Positions 55,838-64,000 of a stretch of DNA of 64,000 nt are shown here, in pieces. Below the pieces are notes generated by a model that was not told the origin of the DNA, did no database searches, and worked only from the letters and a program-made list of their open reading frames with translations. Each line of letters starts with the position of its first letter. Positions within the stretch are counted from its first letter, which is position 1. This stretch comes from Chryseolinea soli. Its GTDB lineage: Bacteria > Bacteroidota > Bacteroidia > Cytophagales > Cyclobacteriaceae. A program made the position numbers and the translations under genes. The stretch is from assembly GCF_003589925.1 (NCBI RefSeq), contig NZ_CP032382.1:496001-560000 (forward strand), written 5' to 3'.

Positions 55838-58453
55838 CTACTCACTCCTCAACGACTCGACCGGATTGGCCAACGCTGCTTTCACCGCCCGGAACCCTGT
55901 GGTGAGTACAACGATAAACGCAGCCAACGTCGTCGCCAGAATAAAAGGCATGGTACCGATGGATGTTCTGTAGGTAAACTCCTGGATCCAGCCATTCAGG
56001 AAGTAGTAGGTAACAGGCCATGCCACCGCACTGGCAATAAGGAGTAACACGACAAACTCCCGGATGAGCAGGAAAGAAACATGGCCCACGGACGCTCCCA
56101 ACACTTTTCGAATTCCGATTTCCTTTGATTTGCGTTCGGCCGAGAACGAGATCAATCCAAAAGTGCCGAGGCACGCGATGATGATGGCGAGACCCGTGAA
56201 TACGCTAAACACTTCTGTGAATTTCTGTTCGGCCACATACTGTTTTTCAATATCATCATTGAGGAAGGTGAAGGAAAATTCGCGATTGGTAACATACTTC
56301 CCATAGATCTTCTCAACATGTGCCAGTGCCGACGTCAGGTCTGCTTTATCTACCTTCAGATAGATCCAATTAAACGCTCTTGGATTAAACACGAAGATGA
56401 TCGGCGGTATCTTGCGATGGAGCGACTCGAAGTGAAAATCATTCACTACACCCACCACCGTATACTTGGTATTGCCGAGCTGCATCCACTTGCCAACGGC
56501 CCCTTTCCATCCCAACTGCGTCACGGCCGATTCATTCAGAATGATCGAAGAAAGGGTGTCGGACGGAAAGTTTCTTGAAAAGTTTCGGCCTTCCACGATC
56601 TTTGCTTCTATGGTCGTCAGAAAATCATAGTCGATGCGAATGATCTTCATGGACTTGTTCACCTCTTCGTCGGCATTCACATCCTGGGCCGTGTAGCCGG
56701 TGCTGTTTCCGATCCACCCGGGCATTCTCATGTTGGAGAGTCCTGCCTTCCTGATCGCCGGGTTCGCGAGAAGCTCTTGGGTGAACACATCGATCCGGCG
56801 TCTATCCATCGTTTGTAAGGGGACGGATATCAGCATGTCATCATTAATGCCCAACGATTTGTTTTTCATAAACGTCCACTGCTTGAGCACGATGGCAGAC
56901 GAGGCGATGAGGCCAATCGAGATCACAAATTGCAACAATACAAGCCCCTTCCTGAACACCAGGCCAAAGTTTCCGCCACCACCACTGTTCTTCATATTGT
57001 TCAAGGGCTTGAAGGAAGACAAGACCAGGGCGGGATAGAATCCGGAAACCAACGCGATGATCGCGAGGGAAATCAAAAGACCTGAAATTATCCCGGGGCT
57101 AAACAAGACATTCCGGGATATTTCCTTCCCGGCAAACTGGTTGAACTGCGGCAGGAGCAGGAACGAAAACAAGATGGCGAGCAAGATCGCGATGGCCGTC
57201 ATCACAAAAGATTCTGCGAAAAACTGACCCATAAGATCCGGTCTTTTTGCACCGAGCACTTTGCGCATCCCCACTTCTTTTGCTCTGCGCATCGACCTTG
57301 CCGTAGTGAGGTTCATGTAATTGACACACGCGATGATCAGGATGAATACCGCCACCACCGAGAAGGTATAGATGCGGGTGAGACTTCCGTTGGCTTCGAA
57401 TTCGCGCCCGATGTTCGATTGAAGGTGAATCGATCGAAGGGGCTGGAGAAACATCTTGAAGGTCGTTGACTTCCAGAAGTCGAGGTTCTTGTTGATGAAC
57501 TCCGGAAAAGTAGCCTCTATCCTCGCGGGATCGGCACCGGGTGCCAGCCGGGCGTAGAGGTATTGAGAGTCCCAGCCGACGTTGGTGAAAAGTCCCTCGC
57601 CAACCACCTGCCTCAGCGTTTCGCCGGAGATCAGAAAGTCGAAATGAAAATGTGCGTTGGAAGGCATATCCTTCATCACCCCGCTCACCTGCAACTCGAT
57701 GGGGTAATCGCTTAGTTTAAAGATCTTGCCCATGGGATTTTCGGTCCCAAAGTATTTGCCCGCGATCGACTCCGAGATCACCACTTTATTGGGGCCTTTC
57801 AAGGCTTCCGCTGTATTTCCCTGGATCAGGGGGAAGCTGAACAGTTTGAAAAAATTATCATCCACCCAGGCCAACCGCTCTTCTACAATTTTTTTGTCGC
57901 CATACTCGAATAAGGTATTATTATCCGGCATGATCCGGACGAGCTCTTCCACTTCGCCATAGTTATTCTTGATGAGCTCGGCGGTCTTCCAGGCATTGGA
58001 GGCGTAAGGCTCCCATACGCCCTGTCGCATGTAGGCGGCAGAAACCCGGTAGATGCGATCGCCATCGCTGTGGAACCTGTCGTAACTCAGCTCATCGGAA
58101 ATAAAAAGATAGATCAGGAGACAGCAGGTGAACCCCAAGGCCAGCCCCGAGACATTGATGAGGCTATAGAGTCGCTCCCGGTTGAAGACCCTGAAGGTTA
58201 TGGTCAGATAATTTTTATACATACCCATTCGGTTTAAATCTTGAAACCCCTGCGGCTGACGGACGATACCCGGTCTGAAAAGCAGCAGTATGTCGACGAG
58301 AAATTTGAAGTCTGCTTTTCGCTTTGACATTCTCGTCAAACGCTTTCGATAGACTTCAATCAGATCGCCTTCGATCGTATCCACCAGGGCGGGACGGCAA
58401 TAGCCCCGGAAAAAACTCAGGAAGACGCGCGGCGGCAGTGGTTTCATTTTCAA
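55838..58453 (-). CDS. FtsX-like ABC transporter permease with PadR-linked prefix domain
   Basis: An 871-residue inner-membrane protein. The first about 75 residues (RVFLSFFRGYCRPALVDTIE, GDLIEVYRKRL) form the permease prefix domain of the PadR-coupled type. Then come two copies of MacB-like periplasmic core plus FtsX domain: helix near 96-116, periplasmic 120-360, FtsX helices 380-510 (AKEVGMRKVLGAKRPDL), second periplasmic part 540-740, second FtsX set 755-870 (SKEIGIRKVLGASVGHVSFL). No ATPase is encoded beside it. MacB/FtsX-type permeases transduce ATP-driven conformational change, often for export or signalling. The 58450 PadR gene overlaps its start by 4 bases. Confidence 0.92.
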   Translation of the reverse strand: MKMKPLPPRVFLSFFRGYCRPALVDTIEGDLIEVYRKRLTRMSKRKADFKFLVDILLLFRPGIVRQPQGFQDLNRMGMYKNYLTITFRVFNRERLYSLINVSGLALGFTCCLLIYLFISDELSYDRFHSDGDRIYRVSAAYMRQGVWEPYASNAWKTAELIKNNYGEVEELVRIMPDNNTLFEYGDKKIVEERLAWVDDNFFKLFSFPLIQGNTAEALKGPNKVVISESIAGKYFGTENPMGKIFKLSDYPIELQVSGVMKDMPSNAHFHFDFLISGETLRQVVGEGLFTNVGWDSQYLYARLAPGADPARIEATFPEFINKNLDFWKSTTFKMFLQPLRSIHLQSNIGREFEANGSLTRIYTFSVVAVFILIIACVNYMNLTTARSMRRAKEVGMRKVLGAKRPDLMGQFFAESFVMTAIAILLAILFSFLLLPQFNQFAGKEISRNVLFSPGIISGLLISLAIIALVSGFYPALVLSSFKPLNNMKNSGGGGNFGLVFRKGLVLLQFVISIGLIASSAIVLKQWTFMKNKSLGINDDMLISVPLQTMDRRRIDVFTQELLANPAIRKAGLSNMRMPGWIGNSTGYTAQDVNADEEVNKSMKIIRIDYDFLTTIEAKIVEGRNFSRNFPSDTLSSIILNESAVTQLGWKGAVGKWMQLGNTKYTVVGVVNDFHFESLHRKIPPIIFVFNPRAFNWIYLKVDKADLTSALAHVEKIYGKYVTNREFSFTFLNDDIEKQYVAEQKFTEVFSVFTGLAIIIACLGTFGLISFSAERKSKEIGIRKVLGASVGHVSFLLIREFVVLLLIASAVAWPVTYYFLNGWIQEFTYRTSIGTMPFILATTLAAFIVVLTTGFRAVKAALANPVESLRSE

Positions 58454-58791
58454 AAAAGACCGCTGAGTTCAAACACCACCTTTGGAATTGCCTTCCACAT
58501 TTTCTCGCGGCTTTCCTTGGCGTATGCGATCGCCTTTTTTCCCATGGCCGTGATCTCGTAATATTTCCGGGGTCGACCCGCCCGTTCCTCGGTGGCCTCT
58601 CCGTTCGCGGACCGGATATAACCTTTTTCCTCCAACCGCAGGAGCGCCGCATGCAGCGCGCCCATACTCACCTCGCGATCGAGTTGCGCCTCAATCTCCT
58701 CCTTGATGGAAACACCATAGGCGGACTTGTGCAGTATGGCGGTAGCCAGCAAAACGATCTCCTCAAACTCGCCGAGAAAGTATTTCCGCAT
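58450..58791 (-). CDS. PadR-family transcriptional regulator
   Basis: A 113-residue winged-helix protein: FLGEFEEIVLLATAILHKSA, then YGVSIKEEIEAQLDREVSMG with the recognition helix, ALLRLEEKGYIRSANGEATE wing and GRPRKYYEITAMGKKAI. This is the PadR-like pattern. Its stop overlaps the permease start by 4 bases (ATGA), so the two are coupled; in Cytophagales such PadR/permease pairs are frequent and the regulator probably represses its own operon. No operator could be assigned. Confidence 0.93.
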   Translation of the reverse strand: MRKYFLGEFEEIVLLATAILHKSAYGVSIKEEIEAQLDREVSMGALHAALLRLEEKGYIRSANGEATEERAGRPRKYYEITAMGKKAIAYAKESREKMWKAIPKVVFELSGLF

Positions 58792-58980
58792 AAACAGGAA
58801 TAATATTTTCTAAAAGAAGGAATAATAATGATGCCAAATCTAAAGCATGAGAATTTGAGGGCAGGAAGGCGGTTTATCAACCCCGCTGCTGTTCAGAACT
58901 GAACGATTCTTTATCGGAAATGAAACGATGTCTGCAACGTCGGGATAGGACGCGGGCCTTACGATCAGAAATCTTGAATA

Positions 58981-59145
58981 ACCCCGGACTTTAGTCCAGG
59001 GTACAGACACCTACTTATGACGGGCTTTAGCCCTGACTTTCCTCTCCGTATGTATCGCCGTCAGCCCAATCATCGGCGTGGTCAGTCCGCCAGTTGGCGG
59101 ACCTTGATAGGATCTGGCTTATGTACCCCGGACTAAAGTCCGGGT
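58981..59145. repeat. Second REP-like cluster: inverted palindrome pair and extra hairpins
   Basis: ACCCCGGACT-TT-AGTCCAGGGT (58981-59002, TTTA centre, one mismatch) and ACCCCGGACTAAAGTCCGGG (59125-59145, TAAA centre) form an inverted doublet. Between them lie GGGCTTTAGCCC near 59022 and the perfect GTCCGCCAGTTGGCGGAC near 59086; a degenerate relative, AAGGCTTTAGACCCGGGGTT, is at 59194-59213. Same family as the 55323/55522 palindromes on the other side of the permease/PadR pair. Confidence 0.75.
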
Positions 59146-59496
59146 TTTTCTTTTCATTTATGCTATCATCTTCGAAAGAGGCGTACATAGACTAAGGCTT
59201 TAGACCCGGGGTTAACCGACTCATCGACGAGCGTGCGCCGCGAACCGATATTTATTGAGCGTATGGCGATGTTCATCAATAACCATGAAAAGGTTTCCCT
59301 GTACGCTATCGTAGACCACCACACTGCGATCTTGTTGATACACGATCGAAACCGAAAACAAAATTCTGTACATTTGAAAACTATCCCACAATTACCGATG
59401 AATGTCAAACTGAGGTGTCGGATCATTTCATCGTTACGGAGAAGGGTTATGTGAGTTTTGCGAATGAAAACTGTGAATTATCCCGAGTTTTAAATC

Positions 59497-59724
59497 ATGT
59501 ATTGGATTAAAATTGTTGTCTGCCTATTTTCCATAGTCTGGGGTACCGTACATCTCGTAGATGGGGTTAGGAATAAAAAGTTTAGAGGCATCGCCAGGCC
59601 AGGACCACTGAAGTTAATCATGGGGGCCGGGCCTTATTATGAAAAAGCCTTAAACTTTTCTGTTGGTGGTATTTTGGTGCTTGTGGGGATAGTCTTATCA
59701 CTCGAATTATTAAGAATAATTTGA
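59497..59724 (+). CDS. Small membrane protein, unknown
   Basis: A 75-residue protein with two hydrophobic helices (about 4-24 and 52-73) and a basic loop between (NKKFRGIARPGPLKLIM). I recognise no family. The composition around it is AT-richer than in the core genes, suggesting acquired DNA. Start at the first ATG; a clean signal for expression was not found. Confidence 0.5.
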   Translation: MYWIKIVVCLFSIVWGTVHLVDGVRNKKFRGIARPGPLKLIMGAGPYYEKALNFSVGGILVLVGIVLSLELLRII

Positions 59725-59851
59725 ATTTTCCACCAACCCTAATATCCTCTGTGAGAATATCTTGCGGCCTTTCGATGAAAAAAGCAAAGAAATTTGCTCA
59801 TTATCAAATTAGTCATACATTGGTCTGTTTCTGATTTTCACTAAGAAAGGA

Positions 59852-60088
59852 ATGCATATGGTAGATGAAAACAATGCTATAAACCTTACAGCAAATGAAG
59901 TCATGACCCTTCAATCTGATCGATATAATGGATATATATATCGTACTATACCCGGAGAAGATGTTTTACGCGGAGGACGAATGTATACTCCTATAGGCAC
60001 TCCTCTAGAGATACAATATGAGAGATTCAAAAGCATCTATAAAATAACATTAGCAACAGGTACGTATAAACAAACCACTGAAATTTAA
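59852..60088 (+). CDS. Small soluble protein, unknown
   Basis: A 78-residue protein, polar, rich in Y and T, without signal or membrane segment (ENNAINLTANEVMTLQSDRY, LATGTYKQTTEI). No family recognised. An ATG two codons downstream is an alternative start. It lies in the AT-rich accessory stretch. Confidence 0.45.
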   Translation: MHMVDENNAINLTANEVMTLQSDRYNGYIYRTIPGEDVLRGGRMYTPIGTPLEIQYERFKSIYKITLATGTYKQTTEI

Positions 60089-60418
60089 TTCCTAAAAGAT
60101 CAGCCTGATAATCGGGTTGTGCGATAGAATCCATTCTCTCATCTACTGAATATTCAAAAAAGTTCTAATTGAGGATGCCGTAAGGCAAACCCCTTATTGT
60201 GCATTTCCAGCAATTGAAATGTTGGCTCGCGAAATGAAGTGATCAACGATGCCTGAATTTTCAATTTAGGGAACTTCAATTCGAATTAATCTCCAAATTT
60301 TAAAAGTAAAGCGAATCGCTCGATATCGACAAAGATCGAGGAGATGAATGGTACAATTGTACTACGTCGGAATCCCGGTCTATGTAGATTTTTGTTCATA
60401 GTTTAACAAAAAAAACTT
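60089..60418. other. AT-rich intergenic stretch, nothing supported
   Basis: About 330 bases between two small orphan genes, clearly AT-rich, without a frame, repeat or RNA I can support. Confidence 0.5.
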
Positions 60419-60943
60419 ATGAAGAAAGCCATACTCATTACCGGATTTAATAACTGGGGAAAAACAAGAATTATCAATCATGCAAATCTATTCAATGGAA
60501 GAAACTATAAATGGGGTCAGACCTGCCGCATCAACGGTATAAACTCAGAATTTATCGTGGAGAATCACTCTAATGACGACTATGTTGGGAAGAATTGGAT
60601 TAAACAATTGCAAGCCAGAATTAAGGAGGTAGAGAAAAACCAACACAATGAAAATTGGAATTTGTTCACAGCCTTATGTCCATCTCTGGAAAACAACAAT
60701 AATTTCATCCATTTACTAAATGATGAAATGTTTGCTGACTATGAAAAGCATTTATTTCTCATCAAGTATAAATGGGAAAATCACGCAGAACTTATCATCA
60801 AAAACATTCAAAGCAAACTACATCTCATACCCAATGCCTCTAGTTATGTAATAGATCAAGATGCCAATATTGCCAATCCGGATGACAGGACGGACGCCAA
60901 AACCCTTGCGATATACAATATCCTTCGAACAATATTTCCATAA
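60419..60943 (+). CDS. Orphan P-loop-type protein
   Basis: A 174-residue soluble protein beginning MKKAILITGFNNWGKTRIIN. GFNNWGKT fits the Walker A pattern GxxxxGK(S/T), directly after a hydrophobic beta strand, as in small nucleotide-binding or kinase-like proteins. No clear Walker B is seen; the C-terminal part (VIDQDANIANPDDRTDAKTL) is acidic. I recognise no family. AT-rich, isolated, probably horizontally acquired; it converges with the 60980 gene. Confidence 0.65.
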   Translation: MKKAILITGFNNWGKTRIINHANLFNGRNYKWGQTCRINGINSEFIVENHSNDDYVGKNWIKQLQARIKEVEKNQHNENWNLFTALCPSLENNNNFIHLLNDEMFADYEKHLFLIKYKWENHAELIIKNIQSKLHLIPNASSYVIDQDANIANPDDRTDAKTLAIYNILRTIFP

Positions 60944-60979
60944 AACACTAATTTGAACTACAGGCCACAAACAATTGCA

Positions 60980-61798
60980 TCAAAACAATTCTAGCTGTGA
61001 AATTGCCTTAGGATGAAAAGTTCCAATGATAACGAACGGATTTGGCATGTTCCTAGCGTGAAACTCAAGAGTAGTTCCCAGAAATAGGTGCAAATCTTTG
61101 GTCCTGGCAAAGTCATCAAGATACTTTGCCCTAACATCCGCCTTTGCCAACGCCTCGTCACCGTGATGATGATCCAATTGACGCCAGTACAAGGCTCCTA
61201 TTTCCCAGTCCTCTATCATCAAGGTACTTTCTCTACCGTCGTTATCTTCAAATGTATACGAAAACTTATAGGGAAGTTTCTTCACAACTTCGGCCTCGGT
61301 GGTCGTTGCTGTAGCAAAAATATTGAGCTGCCGGAGGCTTGCCAATTTATCTCCATCCCAATTGCGCTCGACTTCCTCAATGAGAAAATCTTTGATGATC
61401 GCAGGTTTGAATACGGCCAGCGATGTACTGATGCCTTTTATTTTAGCCTCCGCAATTAGTTCAGTGAGATTGTAATAAACTTTACGAAGCACCAATTTCC
61501 TTCGCTCCATCCAAGCGCCACCGTCAGCTGGCACTTTGACGATTGGTTTTACCTCGGTTTCAAGAGATTGTGGCCTGAAGCTCTCGGGGCGAAAATCCTT
61601 TTCGTTCTTCACCAAGTCCAGCTCTATCCATTGATATTTCTTGTACTGCTGAGCGTATGGCCGTTGACGAAATTGAATGGGGTAAATTCTAATCCAAGTG
61701 CCATCTTCACGGAAACCCGCAGTGCAGACGAGCTCTTCGTATTTTGTTGATAGGGTTGGATATGTTTTAACGGCAATAAGAACCCGGGTAACGGCCAT
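60980..61798 (-). CDS. Unnamed partner of the DUF488 gene
   Basis: A 272-residue soluble protein. The N-terminus TRVLIAVKTYPTLSTKYEEL and CTAGFREDGTWIRIYPIQFR is a pattern I recall beside DUF488 genes in diverse bacteria, but I know of no named function. The centre has basic and aromatic runs (ERRKLVLRKVYYNLTELIAE) and YKFSYTFEDNDGRESTLMIE, which suggests a beta-barrel-like domain; the C-terminus has LFLGTTLEFHARNMPNPFVI and IGTFHPKAISQ. No catalytic motif is obvious. It starts 7 bases after the DUF488 stop, so it is in the same transcript and probably the same process. Confidence 0.7.
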   Translation of the reverse strand: MAVTRVLIAVKTYPTLSTKYEELVCTAGFREDGTWIRIYPIQFRQRPYAQQYKKYQWIELDLVKNEKDFRPESFRPQSLETEVKPIVKVPADGGAWMERRKLVLRKVYYNLTELIAEAKIKGISTSLAVFKPAIIKDFLIEEVERNWDGDKLASLRQLNIFATATTTEAEVVKKLPYKFSYTFEDNDGRESTLMIEDWEIGALYWRQLDHHHGDEALAKADVRAKYLDDFARTKDLHLFLGTTLEFHARNMPNPFVIIGTFHPKAISQLELF

Positions 61799-61805
61799 AT
61801 GTTTT

Positions 61806-62690
61806 TTAAATATGTTTCAATTCATATTCAAAGCCAGAACGTTTTGCAATGGCCTCCGCCAACGGTTTACGATGACACTGACAAATATTGGCTTCAAAAC
61901 ATGTGAGGGCTATTCGCTTATGTTGTTTTAAAAGTTCGAGAATGTTGTCCTGGAATTTGCCGGTTTGTGGAAGGTCGTCGCATCTATAGGCAGCAAACAG
62001 CTTATCATAATCGGCTTGCGAATTGAGCGTCTGCCTTTTGGCGGATTTAATGCCGACTTCCGGCACATGGACATATAGAATACCCAGATTCTCACAACTC
62101 CTCTTCAATTGGCTTTTGGAAAACCCGAACTTCATGCTGATGGGATTGTTTCGCACGTCTACCAACACCTTCACATCGTTTTGCACCAGGCGCATGAGGT
62201 AATTTTCAAATGAAATCCCTTCGTACCCAATCGTGAATAGCGTGGTGCCATGTCCCATGGGGCGGGACGATTCAACCCGGCCATATTCTTGCTTCGTTAA
62301 AAGCTCCGGGGCCTTTGTGCTGTTGATGGCATAAAGGGGATGCGTAAGGTATATGTGCCGCATGAGGTCATCGCTATTGAAATGACCATAAGCATTTTTG
62401 ACACGCATCAAAAACGCTTTGTCGTCGGCTTTGAGCTCACTTAGATAATCTATTTCATCAATCTTTGAAATATGCGTCTTGTCTTCGGCCACCTGTCCAC
62501 GTCTTGCCATGGCGGCGATGTCGGCGGTGAGGGAGTATGAATAGCAGCCGTATTTAAAGGGAACAAATTCAAATACGGGGTTCTTCTGCTCCAGCGTGAC
62601 GAGGAACACCAGCTTCTGAACGCTGATCTTGTCTAACCGGTTCTTATACAACTGGAGTAACCCTAAAACGATCTTTCTCCGATAAAACAT
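61806..62690 (-). CDS. DUF488 protein with SocA/Panacea-like N-terminal domain
   Basis: A 294-residue protein in two parts. Residues about 1-135 (VLGLLQLYKNRLDKISVQKL, VFEFVPFKYGCYSYSLTADI) resemble the SocA/YwgA/Panacea winged-helix-like domain found in antitoxins and phage-linked proteins. Residues about 148-294 are the DUF488 domain: TLFTIGYEGISFENYLMRL, VLVDVRNNPISMKFGFSKSQ, and the closing CFEANICQCHRKPLAEAI with the family's CHR motif. DUF488 function is unknown. The fusion, and the tight coupling to the gene at 60980, suggest one system that may act on nucleic acid or in defence; that last point is inference. Confidence 0.8.
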   Translation of the reverse strand: MFYRRKIVLGLLQLYKNRLDKISVQKLVFLVTLEQKNPVFEFVPFKYGCYSYSLTADIAAMARRGQVAEDKTHISKIDEIDYLSELKADDKAFLMRVKNAYGHFNSDDLMRHIYLTHPLYAINSTKAPELLTKQEYGRVESSRPMGHGTTLFTIGYEGISFENYLMRLVQNDVKVLVDVRNNPISMKFGFSKSQLKRSCENLGILYVHVPEVGIKSAKRQTLNSQADYDKLFAAYRCDDLPQTGKFQDNILELLKQHKRIALTCFEANICQCHRKPLAEAIAKRSGFEYELKHI

Positions 62691-62790
62691 GTCACAAAGT
62701 TAATCAAGTTTTTCCCTATCCAAAAAGGATCATCGCCGCAGGAGGTCCTTATGCTGGCCTGTATCCTATTCAAGAAAGACCACTAAGGCT

Positions 62791-63081
62791 CTACCATACG
62801 ACAGTAACCGTCACTACTGCAACAGCAACACTTTCAGTCACACCAGCGCGCCCTACCATGACAGTAGCAACCGCTGCAGAAACGATAGCAACGTTCTCGG
62901 TAGCCACAACAATGCCTGCAGTCGCGTCGGCAATTCTTTCCATCGTGCCAGCAATTCCCTCGGTCGCGTCAGCAATGCCTTCAATCACGCCGGCAATTCT
63001 TTCAGTAAGCGCAGCAACCGCTACACAGACGTCAGCAACACTTTCACCTTCAGCTTGATATTTTTTCTGGCACGATTCCAT
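62791..63081 (-). CDS. Possible heptad-repeat protein from a 21-bp minisatellite
   Basis: An open frame of about 96 residues from the ATG at 63081 (63192 possible). Most of it is a perfect 7-residue period: ERIAGVI, EGIADAT, EGIAGTM, ERIADAT, AGIVVAT, ENVAIVS, AAVATVM. This would be an amphipathic coiled helix. The opposite strand is also open in phase, as expected of a repeat whose length is a multiple of three, so coding is unproven. The 63083-63129 palindrome lies at its likely start. Confidence 0.35.
   Translation of the reverse strand: MESCQKKYQAEGESVADVCVAVAALTERIAGVIEGIADATEGIAGTMERIADATAGIVVATENVAIVSAAVATVMVGRAGVTESVAVAVVTVTVVW
62815..63055. repeat. Minisatellite: eleven units of exactly 21 bases
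   Basis: A (G/A)CAA or GCGC core recurs at 62825, 62846, 62867, 62888, 62909, 62930, 62951, 62972, 62993, 63014 and 63035, always 21 bases apart, within a unit close to GCGTCAGCAATNCCTTCAGT. Degenerate but without length change. Confidence 0.85.
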
Positions 63082-63082
63082 C

Positions 63083-63129
63083 CCCAGCCAACGATATATC
63101 GTCGCTGCGACGAAATATCGTTGGCTGGG
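63083..63129. repeat. Long near-perfect palindrome
   Basis: Arms of 23 bases (63083-63105 and 63107-63129) pair with one mismatch around a single central T (63106); the core reads GTCGC-T-GCGAC and the outer part CCCAGCCAACGATAT. It has no T-run, so it is not an obvious terminator. Confidence 0.9.
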
Positions 63130-63241
63130 TAGGGATGAGTAGGCCTTGCTGGGGGTAAAAAGGCGGTTTTGTTTTGGCCTGGACCTTGCCATAGGGATTT
63201 GAAATTTTCTAAATCATTACCAAAACAAAAACAAGGTCGTT

Positions 63242-64000
63242 ATGAAAAATTCCAAAGAATACGGTCACGAAAAGAACGTTGCCAATTTCAATCTGCTCAT
63301 CTCCGAATGCAAAAGCCTGGGAGCACTCTATGTTCCCTCCAACGGCGACCTCACCGTGGACAAGCTCACCGAACTTGCCACACGCGCCAAGTCCACACTG
63401 TTGGCGCAAGGCACGGCCAAGTCGGAGCTTGACATGGCGGTCAACATGAGGACCACACTGTTTGAGGGTCTGCCCAAGCTCATCACCCGCATTTTCAGAG
63501 CGGCGCGTTCGGCTAAATTTTCGGACAAAGATCTGAAGGATATGCAGGAGCATATTCGCAAGATCAGGGGTACGCGGGCCAACAGCAAAGTGACCAAAGC
63601 AAAAAAAGAAGCCAAGCTTTCCACCACCCCGCCCGACGGCGAACCGGTGGCCGCACCGGCGACGGTCTCTGTTTCTCAAAAGGGTTTCGACAACCAAATC
63701 AAACACTTCCGCGAACTGGTGGACGGTCTCAAGATCAATCCCCTCTATAAACCCAACGAAGAAAAACTAAAGGTCGAGACCCTCACCAAGCTGGTCGACG
63801 ACATGGACGCTCAAAACCAAAGATCGAAAGAAGCCTACGTCACGCTCTCTAACCTGCGCCAGCAGCGCGATGCGTTGCTGTATAAAAACGGTGCGGGTTT
63901 GTATGATATCGTGATGGCTGTAAAGGATTATATCATGTCGACTGAAGACACTCCGCAGAGCGCGATCACGCGCATAAGGAACATTTCATTCAGGCGATTG
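63242..64000 (+). CDS. Hypothetical protein, cut by the right window edge
   Basis: The frame is open from the ATG at 63242 to the window end (253 codons visible). It begins MKNSKEYGHEKNVANFNLLI; soluble, rich in K, A and T, with predicted helices and a proline/alanine linker near residues 123-140 (STTPPDGEPVAAPAT). A second helical part follows (SQKGFDNQIKHFRELVDGLK). Looks like a coiled or helical-bundle protein. I recognise no family. The stop is outside the window. Confidence 0.75.
   Translation, partial: MKNSKEYGHEKNVANFNLLISECKSLGALYVPSNGDLTVDKLTELATRAKSTLLAQGTAKSELDMAVNMRTTLFEGLPKLITRIFRAARSAKFSDKDLKDMQEHIRKIRGTRANSKVTKAKKEAKLSTTPPDGEPVAAPATVSVSQKGFDNQIKHFRELVDGLKINPLYKPNEEKLKVETLTKLVDDMDAQNQRSKEAYVTLSNLRQQRDALLYKNGAGLYDIVMAVKDYIMSTEDTPQSAITRIRNISFRRL

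Follow-up and report, generated by a model that had tools for sequence, protein, structure and literature searches.

A DUF488 fusion gene and a predicted tandem OB-fold partner in Chryseolinea soli form a two-gene unit that may act on DNA ends

In the passages seen of the paper describing PanAT, GPV is given as the signature motif of Panacea antitoxins and the antitoxin-first gene order as the commoner one (PMC8832971). An archaeal fusion of DUF488 to a helix-turn-helix (HTH) ParB protein is reported, in part of another paper, to bind CTP (PMC12704722), and the PDC systems of PADLOC are presented, in the parts seen of two further papers, as unpublished or unvalidated candidates derived by guilt-by-embedding (PMC12988326, PMC11811056). 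Here we describe two adjacent genes, A and B, in a window of Chryseolinea soli DNA (the whole stretch analysed, 64,000 nt; positions 496,001 to 560,000 of contig NZ_CP032382.1, assembly GCF_003589925.1). The genome consists of one contig of 8.24 Mb, with one match for A and one for B. A couples a DarG/Panacea-like domain to a DUF488 domain, and B is predicted to be a tandem OB-fold protein. We propose, at somewhat less than an even chance, that the two constitute a DNA-directed system of defence or conflict, in which B would bring DUF488 to single-stranded DNA (ssDNA) or DNA ends and the N-terminal domain of A would gate the reaction.

A and B match PDC-M19A and PDC-M19B of PADLOC-DB 2.0.0 over their full length, side by side and with a 7-base gap. 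The initial annotation had called the system undescribed; this claim has to be withdrawn, since the pair is the PADLOC candidate PDC-M19 and the Pfam families DUF488-N3a and DuOB lie near both proteins. A third PDC-M19B model (PDLC04507) finds B in all 7 non-Bacteroidota records tried. The DUF488 part of A also matches PDC-M45B (4.8e-15) and PDC-M45C (1.4e-9), while PDC-M45A, tried as a name for the branch with stand-alone DUF488, had no match in the 7 non-Bacteroidota records or in any control genome. Both proteins also match phage families (phrog_14939 and phrog_25907) that carry no assigned function. A literature search found no paper with the term 'PDC-M19', none with both 'DUF488' and 'Panacea' and no relevant title for 'DuOB', and the term DUF488 is absent from the main texts of the PanAT papers PMC8832971 and PMC10440598. 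The pair is already catalogued as a candidate defence system, for which no tested function was found in the literature. Burroughs and Aravind reportedly predict, in a survey of the rhodanese-phosphatase superfamily from 2023, that DUF488-related enzymes of conflict systems process DNA ends; this survey may already cover the pairing of B with DUF488.

The two genes are tightly linked. In each of the best 80 of 382 genome loci found, B is immediately preceded, on its own strand, by A or by the DUF488 part of A; six of these loci run into a contig end or are missing the N-terminal part of A (L050, L053, L067, L082, L086 and L092). The distance between the genes is -4 to +9 in 84 of the 89 co-directional loci measured. 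Among 198 Bacteroidota genomes, full-length A is present in 14, each with B adjoining, and clear B is present in 15, each with an adjoining DUF488 gene, which in one genome (G050) is stand-alone and tail-to-tail with B; in G162, B is broken. An exact test on these counts (14/0/1/183) gives P 1.5e-20, after a sixteenth B row (G057, E 3.8e-4) had been dropped for lack of a tblastn match. Mirror-tree correlations do not tell interaction from linkage. The distribution is patchy: within the genus, 1 of 6 genomes has a match to B, while the family has 7 of 60 and the phylum 16 of 198, of which 15 are clear. The seven family members carry B in full length (G000, G206, G226 and G227), in part (G230), as a fragment (G205) or as a divergent orphan (G221). 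We therefore rejected a housekeeping role, given the 1 of 6 and 7 of 60 genomes, and also a three-gene system, because the next most frequent neighbour cluster is present in 9 of the 80 loci. The initial annotation had described a DUF488-fusion gene followed after 7 bases by a 272-residue partner whose N-terminus it associated only with DUF488 genes, and had read the two as one accessory unit; the observation is confirmed and the reading as a two-gene accessory unit holds, with the partner seen next to DUF488 in nearly all cases.

Protein A was modelled with a pLDDT of 96.1 (model m800b381049b8). Residues 1–138 are predicted to share the fold of the DarG C-terminal domain, the domain crystallised with the toxin DarT, while the DUF488 domain has a predicted fold near those of tetrapyrrole methylases/diphthine synthase and of dual-specificity phosphatases. 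DUF488 (PF04343) scores 83 bits, above its gathering score of 22.2, whereas SocA_Panacea (PF13274) reaches 14.2 bits against a gathering score of 25.7 and DUF488-N3a (PF22751) 21.3 bits against a cut-off of 27. Residues 48–51 read GCYS where Panacea has GPV, and GP occurs in 3 of 96 aligned relatives. The SocA-like N-terminus that the initial annotation had proposed is upheld by the predicted DarG-like fold, but its similarity to Panacea stays below the Pfam gathering score and lacks GPV. PDB searches with the single sequences of A and B gave no match, and profile searches against PDB gave weak ones, among them one DarG chain (E 0.13). No macrodomain is among the Pfam matches of A. In the DUF488 domain, C264, E266, C272, H273 and R274 are each invariant in 126 of 126 ungapped rows; in the model, the strand 259–264 ends at C264 and the helix 274–282 starts at R274. 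The motif C-x-E-x5-C-H-R is probably the active site.

B was modelled with a pLDDT of 89.8 (model ma4b3b5fea293). The model matches tandem-OB proteins across residues 1–267, by prediction only, and resembles telomere-end, RPA and SSB-like folds, with W96 and R99 at the junction between the two OB folds. By its model, B may bind ssDNA or DNA ends, which agrees with the nucleic-acid link suggested initially. A Pfam scan of this B gave no match, DuOB (PF22557) included, and neither Pfam nor the model identifies it as a DarT ADP-ribosyltransferase. DarTG identity was rejected, as there is neither a macrodomain nor a DarT partner. A divergent B relative on the minus strand of another locus (L216:5757-6581) has no adjacent DUF488 gene and lacks C25, W198 and E199 but keeps R37, D68, R70, W96 and R99; a nearby gene reads as copper-ATPase-like. 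As to whether C25 depends on a DUF488 neighbour, it is Phe in this single orphan, yet B of the Sulfolobus plasmid pSOG2 keeps C25 without an adjacent DUF488.

Outside the Bacteroidota, B is found with DUF488 proteins that have no Panacea domain, in Proteobacteria, Actinomycetes, phages, Cyanobacteria and Sulfolobales. Of the 17 plasmid records examined (17 of 23), 15 have DUF488 next to B, tail-to-tail in 9, with DUF488 first in 4 and B first in 2; the exceptions are pSOG2 and a truncated Gloeocapsa copy, and in L214 B is itself truncated beside an IS element. Matches to B and DUF488 are adjacent on opposite strands in 7 of 7 Gordonia phage records, and in the one Gordonia phage annotation examined B overlaps the immunity repressor gene. 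Viral contigs carry either form: Panacea-type A in 11 of 12 (L098–L109, with L109 cut) and tail-to-tail DUF488 in 12 of 13 (L119–L131, with L130 cut and B of L131 matching in two pieces). In two Streptomyces plasmids DUF488 is fused to an XRE-type HTH, and in plasmid pBEU9E1 of Saccharolobus shibatae a ParB_N-HTH_ParB-DUF488 protein is encoded directly before a B homologue. The cut-off of DUF488-N3a is passed by five stand-alone or HTH-fused partners (L112, L121, L132, L209 and L212). DuOB matches the N-terminal half of B from Gordonia phages, Streptomyces and Sulfolobales, with a best score of 20.4 bits and in every protein scanned below its 27-bit cut-off. On midpoint-rooted FastTree trees, with the shortened copies L050, L086 and L092 counted as Panacea-type, the Panacea-type forms group together for both B (support 0.995) and DUF488 (0.951). 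Since B pairs with stand-alone, HTH-fused and ParB-fused DUF488, what stays constant is the combination of B with DUF488, and the N-terminal module can be exchanged. Judged by these architectures, the Panacea part is not the core of the system, and the SocA/Panacea-DUF488 fusion with which the unit had been identified holds here but not in all lineages.

Several further arrangements were observed. The gene that follows B in pSOG2 looks, by its motif, like PD-(D/E)XK, and small proteins with PD-(D/E)XK-like motifs are encoded directly after B in two Sulfolobales plasmids (L116:10846-11352 and L211:4858-5349); Pfam supports neither assignment. Copper, chromate and P-type ATPase genes of metal resistance lie near the pair on plasmids of Pseudomonas, Arthrobacter and Massilia (L115, L117 and L118). 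At five loci (L154, L156, L159, L162 and L165) two stand-alone DUF488 genes stand in tandem, in Bacteroidota genomes where no B was found.

We examined the neighbours of the pair for defence genes. For chromosomal loci L018–L097, we took the closest ORF of 150 aa or more on either side of the pair (127 of 145 scanned). The controls were ORFs from 14 Bacteroidota genomes, the pair carriers G000 and G226 included, in which 20 arbitrary stretches of 20 kb yielded 291 ORFs, 127 of them scanned. At E 1e-20, 82 PADLOC families were matched in the flanks and 37 in the controls. By hand counts among the matches listed, defence proteins numbered about 10–14 in flanks and 3–6 in controls (P between 0.025 and 0.44 according to the way of counting rows); those named in the flanks include type I and IIG restriction, PD-T7-4, PD-Lambda-4, CapP and other PDCs. 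In viral contigs the gene before B, within about 50 nt, encodes GmrSD (L122), ResIII with a TnsA-like part (L123) or HsdR (L125); in L126 the end of an SNF2 helicase gene lies about 550 nt ahead of B, and an ORF called on the opposite strand falls between the two. L102 has the order N6/N4 methylase, A, B and ResIII helicase; methylase and A, and likewise A and B, overlap by 4 nt, and about 12 nt separate B from the helicase gene (coordinates without stop codons). These assignments come from a Pfam scan of 10 ORFs (nine from 116 selected plus those of L122), which were picked by size and position, so that the scan favours restriction genes. The other five neighbours scanned are phage tail or terminase genes (L101 and L107), the methylase of L102, a histidine kinase (L105) and a weak fn3 match (L103). 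A PADLOC scan of 100 of the 116 selected ORFs, from 22 viral loci, matched 129 families, and the best 25 of these include type I and III restriction parts, DrmD, HmaA and UzuA. Of the initial suggestion of a defence or nucleic-acid-related system, the nucleic-acid link is supported by the predicted OB folds; restriction genes adjoin some viral copies, while the chromosomal counts span the wide range of P given above.

In the mechanism that we favour, B would bind ssDNA or DNA ends, for instance those that arise when a phage replicates, a plasmid enters or a restriction enzyme cuts. It would bring along DUF488, the predicted Rossmann-like enzyme domain of A, with its putative phosphatase/rhodanese-like Cys...Cys-His-Arg site. 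DUF488 might then modify or strip the end or nucleotide by cysteine chemistry and so make the invading DNA unusable. The DarG-like domain would serve as an input or safety module that keeps the pair inactive until triggered, a part that in other lineages might be played by an XRE-type HTH, by ParB or by no module at all. An association with restriction genes would, if true, fit a system working on ends or ssDNA made during infection. A broader proposal, which we regard as doubtful though worth stating, is that PDC-M19 is one branch of a widespread family for DNA-end surveillance in bacteria, archaea and phages, in which a DUF488 enzyme of the Cys-based kind would chemically modify the ends or ssDNA that a telomere-end/RPA-like dual-OB protein presents to it, and exchangeable modules (DarG-like, XRE-type HTH or ParB) would set when it fires. 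If B and DUF488 do act on DNA ends in this way, the chemistry used by this pair of genes, which is carried on plasmids, phages and islands of lineages from Bacteroidota to Sulfolobales, would be, as far as we know, new to immunity, and the swapped input modules would show one effector core wired to different triggers. For the long-standing DUF488 family, which has no assigned function, a partner almost confined to its neighbourhood, with a predicted tandem OB fold, makes the function directly testable.

The main rival, which we consider unlikely but by no means negligible, is a PanAT-like toxin-antitoxin pair. In this reading B, as a toxin, would inhibit growth by binding DNA, and A would be the antitoxin that neutralises it through the DarG/Panacea-like domain, perhaps with phage defence by abortive infection as the outcome. 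That this domain has the fold of the one crystallised with DarT, that DUF488 is fused to XRE-type HTH in the Streptomyces plasmids and that A comes first, as is commoner in PanAT according to the passages seen (PMC8832971), all agree with it. Gene decay points both ways. Among 98 loci, both genes are open in 85, B is short or startless with A open in 6 (L090 looking like a missed start codon), A is so affected with B open in 4 (L015 being a stand-alone DUF488 and L086 lying near a contig edge) and 3 are cut by contig ends. Disruption of B with A open in five genomes (L003, L012, L013, of the same genus as L012, L016 and L169; about four events) counts for this rival; against it, L067 and L092, both possibly assembly joins, have an open B and an A without its N-terminal part. 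Further against a toxin-antitoxin pair, GPV is missing, DUF488 keeps an invariant enzyme-like site, and across several phyla B is paired with DUF488 without the Panacea domain, often tail-to-tail and hence not co-transcribed.

The same predicted OB folds would also suit an accessory for DNA repair or end maintenance, in which B would protect ssDNA ends and DUF488 would clean them to the benefit of plasmids, prophages or islands. The predicted telomere-end, RPA and SSB-like fold, the carriage of the pair by plasmids and phages, and an SSB gene adjoining it in Sulfitobacter (L212) speak for this; we nevertheless hold it improbable, as chromosomal occurrence is sporadic, no third gene occurs in more than 9 of 80 loci and some viral copies adjoin restriction genes. 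These restriction genes, and the same ceiling on any single neighbour, also count against a regulatory or stress pair unconnected with DNA ends, for example one that responds to thiols or metals, in which DUF488 would sense through its cysteines and B would bind RNA or provide an OB-fold scaffold. Such a pair would account for the invariance of C25 in B and of C264 and C272 in A, and metal-resistance genes do lie near three plasmid copies, but these are common plasmid cargo, and we judge this explanation the most improbable of those considered.

The unit (Table 1) lies in a stretch of low G+C. G+C is 45.4% in A, 44.8% in B and 41.2% in 58454-60979, against 51.1% for the window, and dispersed repeats surround the unit, in agreement with the AT-rich, repeat-filled setting noted at the outset. 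The first listed match of B carrying an organism name is a Chryseolinea metagenome-assembled genome (74%). A near-perfect, REP-like palindrome with 29-nt arms and a 1-nt loop occupies 63077-63135; a query around it gave 7 matches in the window genome (G000), its own copy included, and 18 in the sister genome G256, where a site matched on both strands counts twice in either genome. A MITE-like dispersed repeat of about 230 bases (~58970-59210) has many copies in the sister genome G257 and several in G000. The 133-aa ORF at 62791-63192 (minus strand) consists mostly of low-complexity repeats of about 21 bases and is probably no gene. Genes that read as ABC-permease-like flank the island, at 55838-58791, next to a PadR regulator, and at L135:4490-6874 (G000:C1 560490-562874); these paralogues might have helped its insertion by recombination. 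No RNA family was found within 58000-64000 up to E 0.1.

Table 1. Coordinates of genes A and B and of their parts in the window
Feature	Position	Strand	Description
Gene A (PDC-M19A)	61806..62690	-	294 aa; DarG/Panacea-like domain + DUF488; PDLC04505, E 3.1e-120, positions 1-294 of 294
A, residues 1-138	62277..62690	-	predicted DarG C-terminal-domain-like (SocA/YwgA/Panacea-type) domain
A, residues 147-294	61809..62252	-	DUF488 domain, predicted Rossmann-like fold
A, residues 264-274, C-x-E-x5-C-H-R	61869..61901	-	probable active site
A-B gap	61799..61805	.	7 bases, stop of A to start of B
Gene B (PDC-M19B)	60980..61798	-	272 aa; predicted tandem OB-fold protein; PDLC04508, E 9e-121, full length
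B, first OB fold (~residues 1-95)	61514..61798	-	predicted; conserved C25, R37, P40, D68, R70
B, second OB fold (~residues 103-267)	60998..61492	-	predicted; conserved D197-W198-E199, G241
Codon for C25 of B	61724..61726	-	Cys in 127/127 ungapped relatives; Phe in one divergent orphan

Among the systems already described, the pair belongs to PDC-M19, a catalogue entry for a candidate anti-phage system, to which the present analysis adds the fold reading and the partner architectures; the PDC-M19A models matched by A, of 294 and 234 positions, represent the protein of the Panacea type. Pfam DuOB has two OB folds, as B does by prediction only, but its profile is not matched by the window B, and DUF488-N3a accepts the partners of five relatives whereas A of the window falls below its cut-off. 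The archaeal ParB-CTPase-DUF488 fusions have an input module other than that of A, and the passages seen mention no partner gene (PMC12704722). In DarTG, the similarity is confined to the predicted DarG C-terminal fold of residues 1–138, as A has no macrodomain and B is not DarT. Finally, the A-B pair resembles PanAT (Panacea/DUF4065) in being a two-gene locus with a SocA/Panacea-like domain and the A gene first, but A differs in falling below the Pfam cut-off, in having no GPV and in carrying an attached conserved enzyme-like domain, and the pair has relatives without any Panacea domain.
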